DNA of 7,214 nt from Gemmatimonadota bacterium (GTDB taxonomy: Bacteria > GCA-2686955). The position numbers and the translations under genes were made by a program. Below are positions 1 to 7,214 of this stretch, piece by piece. The notes beneath the pieces were generated by a model. The model saw only the letters and a list, made by a program, of their open reading frames with translations. It did no database searches and was not told where the DNA came from. Numbering within the stretch: the first letter of the stretch is position 1; each line of letters opens with the position of its first letter. The stretch lies in NCBI GenBank assembly GCA_002686955.1, contig NYZA01000065.1, forward strand, positions 1 through 7,214, in the 5' to 3' direction.

Positions 1-160
1 CCCATTTTGGCGCCCAGATGTGCCGCGGATCTGGTCGATCGGCGATCTTCGAAACCGGAGGAATAGCAGGCCTATTTCGAGGATTTCGGAGGTCGGCGAT
101 CGGCCGGAGACGTGGTGCAGATGGGATGCCAAAATGGGAAGTTATTCTTGCGCGAACCCT
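1..160. repeat. Palindromic interspersed repeat, copy 1 (left end cut by window edge)
   Basis: The core at 9-130 aligns without gaps to 1851-1972, with 102 of 122 positions identical by hand count. The left arm visible at 1-11 is the perfect reverse complement of 128-138. The right arm continues to about 160 and ends in GCGCGAACCCT. Inside, 37-54 can pair with 84-101 (17 of 18 positions, counting G-T wobbles, with one G-G mismatch), and 60-66 can pair with 72-78 as the apical stem. No transposase or other protein is encoded. The shape resembles a small non-autonomous palindromic element of the MITE or REP type, but that class is inferred. Both strands look alike, so no orientation is assigned. 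Confidence 0.85.
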
Positions 161-268
161 AAGGCCAAGATTCGCACGGCTCGGGCACGCATTAGGTGGC
201 GGATCCTGGGGTATTCGGCACTGATTCTCTCCTGCAACGATACTCCATGCAGGAACCGATTGCCTGAC
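161..268. other. Intergenic stretch without a recognised gene
   Basis: This stretch lies between the right end of repeat copy 1 and a possible small lipoprotein ORF. The only structure I see is a short inverted repeat, TCCTGCA at 230-236 and TGCAGGA at 248-254, with an 11-base loop. It is too short and lacks a T-run, so I do not call it a terminator. I could not identify a convincing sigma-70-type promoter for the downstream gene, although one would be expected between here and 416. Confidence 0.4.
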
Positions 269-454
269 ATGTCAACCCCCTGCCCCATTTCGAGATTGAC
301 CGGTGCCGCCCTATCGATGATCCTTGGAGCCTGCAGCACCATCGACCTTCCGGGCGAGGCGCCGGTTCCCTTCCGCACGCCCCCGTCGAGGGTCGTCACT
401 CCCGGAGTCGATTCGAATGAAGAAGATCATCATCATGGGAGCCGCGGGTCGTGA
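269..454 (+). CDS. Possible small lipoprotein (61 aa), overlaps next gene
   Basis: The ATG at 269 opens a 61-residue frame that looks like a lipoprotein precursor. It has a short N-terminus with Arg9, a hydrophobic stretch at residues 10-21 (LTGAALSMILGA) and the lipobox L19-G20-A21-C22. Signal peptidase II would cleave before Cys22. The remaining roughly 40 residues are proline-rich, low in complexity and match no family I know. The last 38 bases overlap the start of the following P-loop gene in another frame, giving an acidic and His-rich tail that may simply mirror that gene's N-terminal codons. The nearest purine-rich site (AGGA, 251-254) is 14 bases from the ATG, which is too far for a good ribosome binding site. 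The frame stays open upstream through repeat copy 1 to position 20, which weakens the case. It could be a real small lipoprotein, a remnant or chance. Confidence 0.3.
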   Translation: MSTPCPISRLTGAALSMILGACSTIDLPGEAPVPFRTPPSRVVTPGVDSNEEDHHHGSRGS

Positions 455-1724
455 CTTCCACAATTTCAACACCCTCTTTCGCGGAAACGACGACTACGAA
501 GTCGTGGCCTTCACCGCCACCCAGATTCCGAATATCCACGGCCGAGTCTACCCGGCCGAGCTCGCCGGGACGCGCTACCCGGAGGGGATTCCGATCCACG
601 CCGAGGAGGAGCTAGCGACACTGATTGGCGAAACAAACGCCGAAGAGGTTTGGTTCTCCTACTCCGATGTATCGCACGCCTATGTGATGGAACAAGGCAG
701 CAAGGTCAACGCGGCCGGTGCGCACTTCGTCCTCTTCTCGTCACGCAAAACCATGATTCCGTCGACCAAGCCTGTGGTCGCGGTCACGGCCGTGCGCACG
801 GGTGTCGGCAAGTCTCAGACTTCCAGGTATCTCAGCCGCCTCTTCAAGAAGCTGGGCAAGAGGGTCGTGGCGATTCGGCACCCTATGCCCTACGGCGACC
901 TGAATGAACAGGCCTGCCAACGCTTCGCCGCCTACGAAGATCTCGATCTACACAAATGCACCATAGAAGAGCGCGAAGAGTACGAGCCACATATCAACAA
1001 CGGTTTCGTCGTGTACGCCGGTGTGGACTACGAGAAGATCCTTCGCGAGGCGGAGAAGGAAGCCGACGTCATACTTTGGGACGGCGGAAACAACGATACT
1101 CCCTTCATCAAGCCCGACCTGCACATCACTTTGGTCGATCCGCATCGCGCCGGACACGAGCTCTCATACTTCCCGGGAATGGTCAACTTCTTGATGGCCG
1201 ATCTTCTGATCGTCAACAAGGTCCGTCGTGCCGATCCGGAGAAGGTCGAAGAGGTTTTGGAAAACTGCCGGCGTTACAACCCGAAGGCTCGCGTCCTTCG
1301 CTGCGCCTCGGTCATCAGCGCCGACGATCCGGAGCTGATTCGAGGCAAACGGGCCCTGGTCGTGGAGGACGGTCCGACACTCACGCACGGCGGTATGACC
1401 TACGGGGCGGGATGGTTCGCGGCGAAAGACGCGGGCGCTTCAGAGATCGTCGACGCGCGCCCCTACGCGGTCGGCACCATCAAGTCGACCTACGAGAACT
1501 ACCCGAACGCGGCGGCGATCCTGCCCGCCATGGGCTACGGCGACGCGCAGATTCGCGACCTCGAAGAGACGATCAACGCGACGCCGGCCGATGTCGTCGT
1601 CGAGGGCACGCCGATCGCCCTAAAGCGGATCCTCAACGCGAACAAGCCGATCGCCAACGTCACCTACGAGCTGGAAGAGCTCGAAAAGGGGGTGATTGAG
1701 GAGATGCTTCGAGAAGTGCTGTAG
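417..1724 (+). CDS. Cyclic 2,3-diphosphoglycerate synthetase-like P-loop protein (COG2403 family)
   Basis: This 435-residue cytosolic protein resembles the family that includes the methanogen cyclic 2,3-diphosphoglycerate synthetase, which makes the cyclic osmolyte from 2,3-diphosphoglycerate with ATP. Bacterial members are often called predicted GTPases, and their reaction is generally unproven. The N-terminus (MKKIIIMGAAGRDFHNFN) is typical and starts a Rossmann-like segment of about 110 residues. A P-loop follows at 127-133 (RTGVGKS) within the strand-loop VVAVTAVRTGVGKS, then an acidic WDGGNND at 221-227 and NK at 267-268 (LIVNKVR). The ATG at 417 is chosen because the family begins at MKKIII and GGAG at 404-407 lies 9 bases upstream. 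The longer frame from 324 adds 31 low-complexity residues and is unlikely. The gene stands alone and is followed by a hairpin. No 2-phosphoglycerate kinase, the partner enzyme in methanogens, is visible nearby. Family confidence is high and substrate confidence is low. Confidence 0.88.
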   Translation: MKKIIIMGAAGRDFHNFNTLFRGNDDYEVVAFTATQIPNIHGRVYPAELAGTRYPEGIPIHAEEELATLIGETNAEEVWFSYSDVSHAYVMEQGSKVNAAGAHFVLFSSRKTMIPSTKPVVAVTAVRTGVGKSQTSRYLSRLFKKLGKRVVAIRHPMPYGDLNEQACQRFAAYEDLDLHKCTIEEREEYEPHINNGFVVYAGVDYEKILREAEKEADVILWDGGNNDTPFIKPDLHITLVDPHRAGHELSYFPGMVNFLMADLLIVNKVRRADPEKVEEVLENCRRYNPKARVLRCASVISADDPELIRGKRALVVEDGPTLTHGGMTYGAGWFAAKDAGASEIVDARPYAVGTIKSTYENYPNAAAILPAMGYGDAQIRDLEETINATPADVVVEGTPIALKRILNANKPIANVTYELEELEKGVIEEMLREVL

Positions 1725-1749
1725 AAGAGCGCTTCGCCTCGGAGAACAG

Positions 1750-1779
1750 AGCCCCCGCTGATCCGAGTCGGCGGGGGCT
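1750..1779 (+). terminator. Hairpin terminator after the P-loop gene
   Basis: Positions 1751-1761 (GCCCCCGCTGA) pair with 1768-1778 (TCGGCGGGGGC) in an 11-base-pair stem with one G-T wobble and a 6-base loop. An extra A-T pair sits at 1750/1779. The stem starts 26 bases after the stop codon. The downstream sequence is TTCGTCGTG, so there is no real U-tract. It is probably a transcription terminator or 3'-end stabiliser, less certain than a classic intrinsic terminator. Confidence 0.6.
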
Positions 1780-1820
1780 TCGTCGTGCTAGGCTGGCGCG
1801 TCATGTTCGCCCCGGCCACT

Positions 1821-2001
1821 AAGGGTTCGCGCAAGAATGACCTGTCATTTGGCGCACAGATGTGCCGCAGATCTGGTCGATCGGTGAGTTCCGAAACCGG
1901 AGGAGTGGCAACGCTACTTCGAGGCTTTCGGGGCTCGCCGATCGGACGGAGATGAGGTGCAGATGGGAAGCCAAATGACAAGTCATTCTTGCGCGGCCCC
2001 C
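1821..2001. repeat. Palindromic interspersed repeat, copy 2 (complete), forms the 5' end of the EF-G-like gene
   Basis: This is the full 181-base form of the element seen at the left edge. The terminal arms are 1828-1853 and 1970-1995, 26 bases each and reverse complements with one mismatch. Each arm also carries a small palindrome, AATGAC-NN-GTCATT. The inner stem pairs 1879-1896 with 1926-1943, giving 18 of 18 pairs when three G-T wobbles are counted. An apical stem pairs 1902-1909 with 1913-1920 around a 3-base loop. Relative to copy 1, several pairs change on both sides or shift between Watson-Crick and wobble. The right arm reads as codons for SHSCAAPK in frame with EF-G, so the gene start lies within the repeat. 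No coding function or target-site duplication is evident. Confidence 0.88.
1954..1970 (+). promoter_or_regulatory. Candidate ribosome binding sites inside repeat copy 2 for the EF-G-like gene
   Basis: GAGG at 1954-1957 stands 5 bases before the ATG at 1963, and GGGAAG at 1965-1970 stands 4 bases before the ATG at 1975. A GTG at 1957 is a third in-frame option, with GGAG at 1948-1951 upstream. I prefer 1963 for its spacing. Starting at 1975 would give an N-terminus of more usual EF-G length. All of these signals belong to the repeat, and the 1975 ATG lies in its outer stem. Confidence 0.45.
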
Positions 2002-4068
2002 AAGCTTCGCAACATAGGCGTCGCGGCCCACATCGATGCGGGGAAGACCACGACGACGGAGCGGATCCTCTTCTATGCGGGTGTTACCCACCGACTGGGA
2101 GAAGTGGATGAGGGCTCCGCCACGATGGACTGGATGGAGCAGGAACGCACCCGGGGCATCACGATTACGAGCGCGTGCACCCAGGTGGAATGGCGCGATC
2201 ACGCCATCAATATCATCGACACCCCGGGGCATGTCGACTTCACCGTCGAGGTCGAGCGCTGCATGCGGGTTCTCGATGGAGCGGTGGCTGTCTTCTGTGC
2301 CGTGGGCGGAGTCGAGCCGCAATCGGAGGTCGTCTGGCGGCAGGCCGACCGCTACCGCGTTCCAAGAGTGTCGCTCGTCAACAAGATGGACCGGATCGGC
2401 GCCGACTTCGGCAGAGTGCTGCGACACATGAAGGAGAGGCTGAAATGTGTTCCGATCCCAATCCAGCTTCCGATCGGCGCGGAGGCCGACTTCGAGGGTG
2501 TCGTGGACTTGATTGGACAGCGCGCCTTGATCTGGGACGAAGGATCGCTTGGTGAGCACTACCGCATCGCGGAGATCCCGGACGAATTGCGCGATCGAGC
2601 GCATGCGTTGCGAGAAGAACTGATCGCCATATGCGCCGAAGTCGACGAAGAGCTGCTCGATATGCACTTCGAGGAGGTCCCGATCCCTCCATCTCGCATC
2701 ATCGCCGCATTGCGCACCAAAACCATATCGCTAGAGGTTTTTCCGGTGCTCTGTGGATCGTCCCTCAAGAACCGAGGTGTGCAACCTCTGCTCGATGCGG
2801 TAGTTGATTTCCTTCCGGCGCCGCACCAGGTCGATTCGATCACCGGCGTCGATCCCGCCTCGGGCGAGACGGTCGAGGTGGCGTTCGGCGACCGGAACTT
2901 GGCGGCGCTCGTCTTCAAAGTGATGGCCCAAGATGCCTACCAAACCCTTTGCTATGCGCGTCTCTACTCCGGCGAAATCGTCCGCGGCGGCGTGGTTCGC
3001 AACGCCGTCAGCGGAGAGGACGAGAGGATTGGGCGCATCCTGCGCATGCATTCCAATCGGTCGCGACAGATCGAGAAGGCTCGAGCCGGCGACATCGTGG
3101 CACTCATCGGGCTGAAACACACGACTACGGGCGAAACGCTCTGCAGCAGCAATCGACCGGTCGCACTCGAGGGGATGAGTTTCCCGGAGCCGGTGATTCA
3201 AGCCGTGGTCGAGGCGAGAAGCGCGGCGGATCAGCGCCCCCTGGAAGATTCGCTGTCCCAATTCGCGCGAGAGGATCCGACATTTCGCCTGTCGGTCGAT
3301 GAAGAGACCGGGCAGACGCTGATCGGCGGCATGGGAGAGCTTCATCTCGACGTCATCGTTCAGCGTCTGCGCGACGAGCGGGGGCTCGAGGTGCGTAAGG
3401 GGAAGCCGCAGGTGGCCTATCGGGAGTCGATCACGATCGCGGCGGAGCACGAAGATGTCTTCCACCGCCAAGTCTCCGGGGCGCGGCTCTCGGCCCGCGC
3501 CCTCGTCCGAGTAGAGCCGAGCGCGAAGGGCGCCGGCGTGGAGGTTTGCGAGAGAGTCCCGCCCGAAAGGGGAATCCCCGCCCCGCTGCTCGCCGACGCC
3601 GTCCAGCTCCTGAAGGACGCATCGACGACCGGGCCAGTCGCCGGCTACCCCCTGATCGACGTGATCGTGACTCTGCTCGACGTCACGACGCAGGGCGAAG
3701 AGCTCTCGGCGGTCGCGATCCAATCATCGGCCGCCCGTGCTCACGGCGAAGCGTTGCGAAGCGCCGCCCCTACGCTGCTGGAGCCGATCATGGCCATGGA
3801 GGTCTCGGTTCCAGCCGAGTGCACCGGCGCCGTCCTCAAAGACATCGGCGCCCGCCAAGGTGAGATACTCGGTGTCGAGTCTCGACCGGAGAGCGACATC
3901 GCGCGGGCGCACGTTCCACTGGCCCGGGTTTTCGGATACAGCACCGATCTGCGCGACCTGACGCGAGGCCGAGGCACCTTTACTCTTCGCCCACACTCCT
4001 ACGAACCGATCGAGCGATCACCGCTGAATCTCGCCGGGGCACTTCGAGATCGAGACACACGGAATTGA
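1963..4068 (+). CDS. fusA: Elongation factor G paralogue (EF-G2-like translational GTPase)
   Basis: This is a 701-residue five-domain translational GTPase of full EF-G length. From the ATG at 1963 the GTPase motifs are G1 at 22-30 (AHIDAGKTT), G2 RGIT at 64-67, G3 DTPGH at 86-90, G4 NKMD at 140-143 and a G5-like CGSSLKN at 264-270. Domain II covers about 290-400. Domain III carries [15 protein letters not shown] at 437-451 and GGMGELHLD at 455-463. Domain V has LLEPIM at 605-610 and [16 protein letters not shown] at 658-673. Domain IV is divergent: the usual glycine-rich RGQ segment is replaced by [10 protein letters not shown], and the tip His of canonical EF-G appears to be Gln577. No ribosomal protein genes or tuf flank it, so this is probably a paralogue with a specialised role such as recycling or stress translation. 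The start and first 13 or so codons come from repeat copy 2. The 3' end overlaps msrB tail to tail by 89 bases. Confidence 0.93.
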
Positions 4069-6718: not shown

Positions 6719-7214
6719 GTGATTCCCATCCCGCTTATCCGCCTATCCGCCGCTCTTCTTTTCTGCTCCACCGCAAGCGCGGCCGTGCCAAAGCAAGGCT
6801 CGTTCATGTTCGACGGCGAGATGCGCACCGGCCAGTACTATGTACCCGACGATCTTCCGCCAACGCCGGTCCCGCTAGTGTTCCATCTGCACGGCGGAGG
6901 AGGTGACAGCGACACGGCGATGGATTTCACGACGGAGTTCCGTTGGAACGAGCTCGCCGATCGCGATAAGTTCATCGTCGTCTACCCAGAAGGGATCGAT
7001 GATCATTGGAACGATTGTCGGGGCGACCTGCCCGACCTGCCCGATTCCGATGATGTCGGTTTCATTGCCGCCGCGATCGACCTGGTGGCGACGTATTTCA
7101 ATATCGATCAGGAGCGGGTCTACGCCGCGGGGATGTCGAACGGTTCGATGAAGCACCCTTTAAGAACGCGATTCGGCGTTGTGAACAGGACGGAGTTGTA
7201 TTCGAATCGATGGC
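6719..7214 (+). CDS. Secreted LpqC / polyhydroxybutyrate depolymerase-type esterase, partial and possibly disrupted at the 3' end
   Basis: This is an alpha/beta-hydrolase of the COG3509 type (LpqC, PHB depolymerase, feruloyl esterase relatives), exported to hydrolyse esters or polyesters outside the cytoplasm. A Sec signal peptide is visible at residues 1-22 (IPIPLIRLSAALLFCSTASA core). The oxyanion-hole strand VPLVFHLHGGGG lies at 51-62. DDVGFIAAAIDLV, typical of the family, covers 111-123. The nucleophile elbow is GMSNG at 138-142 with Ser140. The GTG at 6719 has AGGAG at 6708-6712 with a 6-base spacer. The reading frame stays open to the window edge, so the C-terminal half with the Asp and His of the triad is missing. 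After Met144 (about 7150) the residues KHPLRTRFGVV no longer look like this family, which normally continues with a helix such as MxxRLxCE. A rearrangement, frameshift or assembly join is possible. Confidence 0.85.
   Translation, partial: MIPIPLIRLSAALLFCSTASAAVPKQGSFMFDGEMRTGQYYVPDDLPPTPVPLVFHLHGGGGDSDTAMDFTTEFRWNELADRDKFIVVYPEGIDDHWNDCRGDLPDLPDSDDVGFIAAAIDLVATYFNIDQERVYAAGMSNGSMKHPLRTRFGVVNRTELYSNRW

Follow-up and report, generated by a model that had tools for sequence, protein, structure and literature searches.

Palindromic MITEs of bacteria are usually described as a pair of DNA ends with filler between them. For ERIC, Correia and RUP elements the target duplication is usually given as TA, and REPs and REPINs are known as palindromes of 20–40 bp that carry a GTAG/CGTC tag, have a linked RAYT gene and come without target duplication. 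Inside REPs, a fixed site is targeted by the insertion sequences ISPsy8, ISPa11, ISPpu9/10 and ISRm19/22 (PMC1525189). At the RNA level, Correia transcripts are reported to be cleaved by RNase III, and mRNA levels are affected by ERIC hairpins (PMC10969869; PMC2267715). Bacillus cereus carries the interspersed repeats bcr1–bcr18, 100–400 bp in length and often transcribed in UTRs, among which bcr1–3 are MITE-like while bcr10 and bcr18 have a conserved predicted RNA structure (PMC6542083, PMC3446304). The mobility of the bcr repeats has been linked to a TTTAT motif (PMC6542083). Rickettsia palindromic elements (RPE), palindromes of about 150 bp, go as far as lying within coding sequence and being translated (PMC10969869).

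Could a mobile hairpin of this kind also be kept for its fold? The family presented here is represented by two copies in the window (contig C65, 1–7214, the whole stretch of 7,214 nucleotides that was analysed). The source genome is a 4.28 Mb assembly, fragmented into 270 contigs and about 85% complete, and the host is a bacterium of a barely sampled lineage. We put at about 0.58 the probability that these are non-autonomous, MITE-like transposable hairpins whose fold is selected for a role as RNA, taken as the full explanation of what is described below.

The two copies in the window

The preliminary description recognized two palindromic cores, and its details hold on re-examination: 9–130 and 1851–1972 comprise 122 bases each, align without a gap and differ at exactly 20 positions. 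An apical-stem pair is A63-T75 in copy 1 and G1905-C1917 in copy 2, an inner-stem pair is T46-G92 and G1888-C1934, respectively, and the outer arms, of AAAATGGG type in copy 1 and AAATGAC type in copy 2, each complement their own partner arm. The repeat is nevertheless larger than was then described, since copy 2 runs from 1823 to 2000, has terminal inverted repeats and lies between flanks of 3 bp (Table 1). Against dinucleotide shuffles, copy 2 folds with an MFE of −119.7 (z −12.4) and copy 1 with an MFE of −98.3 (z −9.5).

Table 1. Coordinates of the hairpin copies, their parts and associated features (window positions).
Feature	Position	Strand	Basis and remarks
Hairpin copy 1, its left arm lost at the contig end	1..159	+	Family columns ~23-181; 84% identity to copy 2 (genome search); alignment A1; contig starts at base 1
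Copy 1 core (model R1 positions 1-122)	9..130	+	CM match, 127.2 bits
Copy 1 right terminal inverted repeat, GGGTTCGCGCAAGAATAACTTC on the - strand	138..159	-	Pattern match, 1 mismatch
Copy 1 right target-site flank TAA; left partner beyond the contig	160..162	.	Sequence; 3-bp duplications across the family
EF-G start before the insertion; from ATG 1803 the frame now runs for 50 codons, into the element, up to TGA 1953	1803..1955	+	Flank reading
Copy 2 left target-site flank TAA	1820..1822	.	One change relative to right flank CAA
Copy 2, complete 178-bp hairpin element	1823..2000	+	MFE -119.7 kcal/mol on + versus -92.9 on - (1821-2001)
Copy 2 left terminal inverted repeat	1823..1844	+	Pattern match, 1 mismatch
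Copy 2 core (model R1 positions 1-122)	1851..1972	+	CM match, 115.9 bits
Copy 2 tandem G-A internal loop 1, 5′ side GA	1859..1860	+	Partner 1962-1963; GA/GA in 31/35 copies
Copy 2 tandem G-A internal loop 2, 5′ side GA	1870..1871	+	Partner 1951-1952; GA/GA in 30/35 copies
EF-G paralogue, frame now starting inside the element (GTG 1957, ATG 1963 or ATG 1975)	1957..4068	+	ORF; Pfam GTP_EFTU, EFG_III, EFG_IV, EFG_C; relative's N-terminus MSASTHQLRNIG
Copy 2 right terminal inverted repeat	1979..2000	-	Pattern match, 1 mismatch
Copy 2 right target-site flank CAA	2001..2003	.	Flank comparison
Transposase_29 IS junction loci: L085 (C108), L093, L096, L097, L098, L099, L086			

Copy 2 interrupts the start of a gene for an EF-G paralogue. 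Reading the flanks with the element and one flank excised gives ATGTTCGCCCCGGCCACTAAGCTTCGC, that is MFAPATKLR and then NIG; this restored N-terminus, together with the start of a relative's EF-G (71% identical, N-terminus MSASTHQLRNIG), indicates that the element landed just after EF-G codon 6. Downstream of the element no start codon precedes the conserved LRNIG, and the EF-G frame can therefore open only at GTG 1957, ATG 1963 or ATG 1975 within the element, so that a translation-factor gene now has its start inside a mobile element. The stop codon TGA 1953 adjoins these element-borne start codons, an arrangement in which translational coupling could take place. Two further, more distant EF-G-like genes (48% and 37%) are present in the genome, and comparable start-codon cases may exist on contigs C199 and C144. 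That the hairpin preferentially supplies start codons was rejected by a frame count (outward genes 16/18/21 over the frames; ATG-arm frame 18/55, no enrichment), and a preference for in-frame coding insertion, as in Rickettsia palindromic elements, is likewise not seen.

Other observations concern the edges of the window copies and of the contig. The sequence CGGCTCGGGCACGCATTAGGTGGCGGATCCTGGG, which adjoins copy 1 (window ~172–206), also adjoins a truncated hairpin near C244:18920 (L127), and its recurrence reflects either another repeat or a trace of recombination. At 7140–7214, by the contig end, a PHB-esterase-like ORF apparently lacks the expected sequence directly after its GMSNGS motif; the last 67 bases of the window are unique in the assembly.

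Copy number, ends and insertion sites

The further copies that the preliminary description looked for exist by the dozen in the source genome, where they were gathered by searches and from retrieved stretches, all copy numbers being lower bounds. A covariance model places the core at about 59 or more positions (at least 68 matches before palindrome double hits were removed manually), BLAST with copy 2 scores at least 40 places, and the 22-bp terminal inverted repeat GGGTYCGCGCAAGAATRRCTTG has at least 131 matches at ≤2 mismatches, whereas the reversed control of this 22-base pattern has 0 in the same genome. Elsewhere, BLAST and the covariance model gave no match in 40 other genomes, among them the one same-family relative, in a collection with two genomes of this phylum, nor was any match found in the viral contigs searched. 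A lone exact 22-base match among GTDB genomes was rejected as a relative, its locus being no hairpin. In a search of the Rfam covariance models no family rose above threshold, the best matches being sub-threshold and located elsewhere, and for Rfam the earlier statement that no named family matches is thus confirmed.

Full elements measure about 178–182 bp, bear 22-bp terminal inverted repeats and have sharp ends in the aligned copies. They are found at unrelated loci, inserted in either orientation, and no orientation bias relative to genes or to GC skew (replication strand) was detected. In 18 of 32 full copies the 3-mers on the two sides are the same, the mean being 5.6 and the maximum 12 in 2000 shuffles, and duplication widths of 1, 2 and 4–9 show no comparable excess; the triplets are mostly TNA (TAA, TTA, TCA, TGA), with AAA and ATA in addition. 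These 3-bp duplications are the signature of transposition via the terminal repeats, the flanks of old copies having decayed. Like MITEs, the hairpins are short, non-coding and multi-copy, with terminal inverted repeats and a target-site duplication; the label “MITE-like” is used because no autonomous partner with the same ends was found, the terminal-repeat loci retrieved from this fragmented, incomplete genome including no long element with both ends; the partner may lie outside the assembled sequence. An IS5/IS4-type DDE_Tnp_1 was considered as partner and rejected, neither of its two loci having matching ends. In a second end type, GGGTCGGCGAAGAAAT, both arms have changed together, and a search for an autonomous copy with this variant found none.

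Shorter hairpins of 42, 89–92, 100–101 and 153 bp keep the arms and have lost the apex. By reading, several of their joints fall at the short direct repeats AGATGTG, GCAGAT or AGAT, as expected for slippage across the hairpin. A 91-bp copy on contig C242 is a fold-back form, one arm having given way to an exact complement of its partner, and indicates occasional arm copying. Minimal forms of about 40–57 bp, barely more than two terminal repeats, occur at L070 (C176:6983), L077 (C8:32785), L122 (C86:773) and L176 (C41:20739). In three copies, L108/L197 (C17:5509-5745), L055 (C212:~5873) and L192 (C66:4843), a block starting GAGATGGGATGAGAAGGCCGACCTCCCC splits the hairpin at nearly the same place in its apex; this block is perhaps another element with the hairpin as its target.

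The hairpin arm also harbours an insertion sequence. Its complete copy, 2.46 kb at C108:63504-65964 (L085), has two overlapping reading frames, one for a Transposase_29 protein (PF21804, E 3e-190) and one for a helix-turn-helix protein; a run of A near the overlap suggests a programmed frameshift. The ends of the IS are its own, CAGACCTCCTGATCTCGGG, and at C108 the AACTT of the insertion point is duplicated on both of its sides. All eight junctions seen (five outer-side, three inner-side) lie at one exact point of the hairpin arm, from which it follows that the hairpin is the target of the IS and not its offspring. The IS family is absent from the 40 relatives and 14 control genomes, and its protein had no match in the plasmids searched. 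A little-studied transposase family is thus seen landing at one exact repeat site.

Conservation of the fold and its strand preference

Each full copy forms one long hairpin. In alignment A1, RNAalifold finds 56 pairs, 23 of them with double changes, among 35 copies whose kinship by descent means that cell counts are not independent. Over an 80-pair structure, 95.1% of the stem cells are paired, compared with just 34–43% when the structure is slid by 1–3 columns. Double changes affect 32 of the 80 pairs and 103 cells, the shuffled means being 16.8 and 31.7, and none of 500 shuffles reaches the observed values. Stem positions do covary across the 35 copies rather than varying independently, and their compensatory changes exceed chance, as in a conserved structured RNA: on these statistics, the stems are maintained by compensatory change. 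A very divergent copy on contig C214 still folds, at −129.6 kcal/mol. The outer arms fall into the discrete homotypic types CTTGTCAT, CTTCCCAT, AATGCTAT and GTGGTGAG, and hybrids with mismatched outer arms on contigs C165, C240, C138, C1 and C56 show that a copy can persist without perfect outer pairing.

This pairing is not the same on both strands. In every one of 32 copies the + strand has the stronger MFE (mean −128 versus −96), and the ratio of G-U to A-C cells is 143:2 in the mid stem (columns 28–50) and 181:12 in the inner stem (columns 51–89), or 324:14 for the two combined, an excess that is in part ancestral (about 8 fixed G-U pairs), copy orientation having been assigned by similarity. 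Counted by column, 34 favour G-U and 3 favour A-C in columns 28–89 (p about 1e-7). In the outer arms (columns 1–27) the ratio is 41:27 by cells and 12 to 4 by columns (p 0.08), and by column the outer and inner parts do not differ significantly in bias (p 0.18). Divergent copies held out of the alignment give 93:8. Two 2×2 internal loops are GA/GA in 31 and 30 of the 35 copies; a single bulged A has been retained in 34 of them. Within columns 28–89, variants present in at least two copies count 17 G-U to 2 A-C, singletons 13 to 9 (Fisher p 0.04). This is the pattern expected if the copies that spread are selected for the + strand fold and later private mutations are not; a plain mutational strand bias is disfavoured, since singletons should then show it too.

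Readings of the strand-specific fold

A cruciform has no strand preference, and when one arm is copied onto its partner, Watson-Crick pairs result and mismatches are healed. Because the mismatches here are specific to one strand (G-U and not A-C) and the G-A loops are kept, the sequences point to a folded RNA or a single DNA strand as the object of selection, rather than to a cruciform or arm homogenisation alone. The 35 copies and the held-out ones thus lend strong support to the earlier proposal of a maintained fold, but two of the forms it envisaged, an extruded cruciform and pure arm homogenisation, fit poorly. A cruciform or a structure of double-stranded ends, selected for transposase binding and covarying regardless of strand, would suit terminal arms that are long and perfect enough, as well as the weak bias of the outer 27 columns; the asymmetry of 34 columns to 3 in the mid and inner stems makes it highly improbable. 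DNA copying that keeps the arms alike with no selected fold, through quasipalindrome correction or template switching while the element is replicated or mobilised, would explain why 5–7 adjacent outer-arm pairs change as a block between the four arm types, and the C242 copy looks like its product. It would leave neither G-U far above A-C on one strand nor two persistent G-A loops and a bulged A, and we hold it improbable as a full account.

The strand-specific fold might instead be a single-stranded DNA hairpin used for movement, as in IS200/IS605-type elements, REP/RAYT systems or integron attC sites. Such a role would leave an identical signature: DNA hairpins, too, tolerate G-T wobbles and tandem G-A mismatches, the DNA fold of the + strand is also the stronger (consensus −79.1 versus −70.0), and the genome has one Y1-transposase gene. 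This reading is nonetheless unlikely. The hairpins duplicate 3 bp of their target and end in terminal inverted repeats, neither of which is known as a feature of Y1/HUH systems, the Y1 locus has no hairpin ends, and orientation follows no replication-strand bias; the pattern of IS200/IS605-type or attC elements, with no target duplication and a Y1/HUH or tyrosine recombinase, is not found. The link to a TnpA-REP transposase raised in the preliminary description is not supported. REPs, as far as we know, make no target duplications, and a REP/RAYT origin was rejected, the sole Y1_Tnp locus being unlinked and without matching ends; in size as well, the hairpins differ from RAYT-mobilised REPs and REPINs. 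By inference, RNA is preferred over single-stranded DNA because the ends and duplications are those of a double-strand transposon. As for the source of the hairpins, could they be deletion derivatives of the Transposase_29 IS? Four IS copies seem to open with the hairpins' own 22-base terminal repeat, and were candidates for the autonomous parent; they were rejected when the far side of the complete IS on C108 proved to re-enter the hairpin, AACTT[CAGACC...GGTCTG]AACTTGTCAT. With 8 of 8 junctions at that hairpin site, and with ends of its own (CAGACCTCCTGATC) and a 5-bp duplication, the IS is scarcely credible as parent.

The preferred reading, a transposable hairpin with a role as RNA, would work as follows. 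A DDE-type transposase, not seen in the incomplete assembly, would move the element through its terminal repeats, and the copies that spread would be those whose + strand still forms the long hairpin. The fold would be kept because the hairpin is active as RNA when transcribed, most likely as an extended RNA duplex for RNase III or a comparable nuclease, whose cuts would tame or process the transcripts that pass through the element. Once inserted, a copy would drift, singleton changes showing no strand bias, and erode by slippage across the hairpin; it may also become a landing site for the Transposase_29 IS or give a gene a start codon. Against this reading, the surroundings of copy 2 yielded no sigma-70-like promoter. 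Propagation itself may even require the folded RNA, in the manner of a SINE or via a transposase that reads RNA hairpins, since multi-copy variants obey the RNA pairing rule and private mutations do not; we regard this as a long shot. With dozens of copies in one genome, selection acting on double-stranded ends can be told apart from selection acting on a single folded strand, and it is the second that the data favour. Whether hairpin MITEs persist as RNAs thereby becomes a directly testable question.

Comparison with known systems

With ERIC, Correia/NEMIS (CREE), RUP and YPAL the family shares a length of about 100–180 bp, many copies, terminal inverted repeats, a short duplication and a whole-element hairpin in transcripts, here a predicted one; its duplication, however, is of 3 bp and of TNA type, unlike that of ERIC, Correia and RUP. 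From palindromic MITEs it differs in having no Rfam match and in showing strand-specific covariation and conserved tandem G-A loops. REP, BIME and REPIN sequences are likewise high-copy palindromes with an IS at one fixed internal site, but the present elements are of 178–182 bp with duplications, and their IS belongs to Pfam Transposase_29 (PF21804), likened to the REP-targeting ISs by its use of one fixed site. In contrast to RPE, the hairpin has been seen only at the 5′ end of genes, with a replaced start codon. Finally, compared with the bcr repeats, it lives in an unrelated host, does not show the TTTAT motif, and unites mobility features and RNA covariation in one and the same element.
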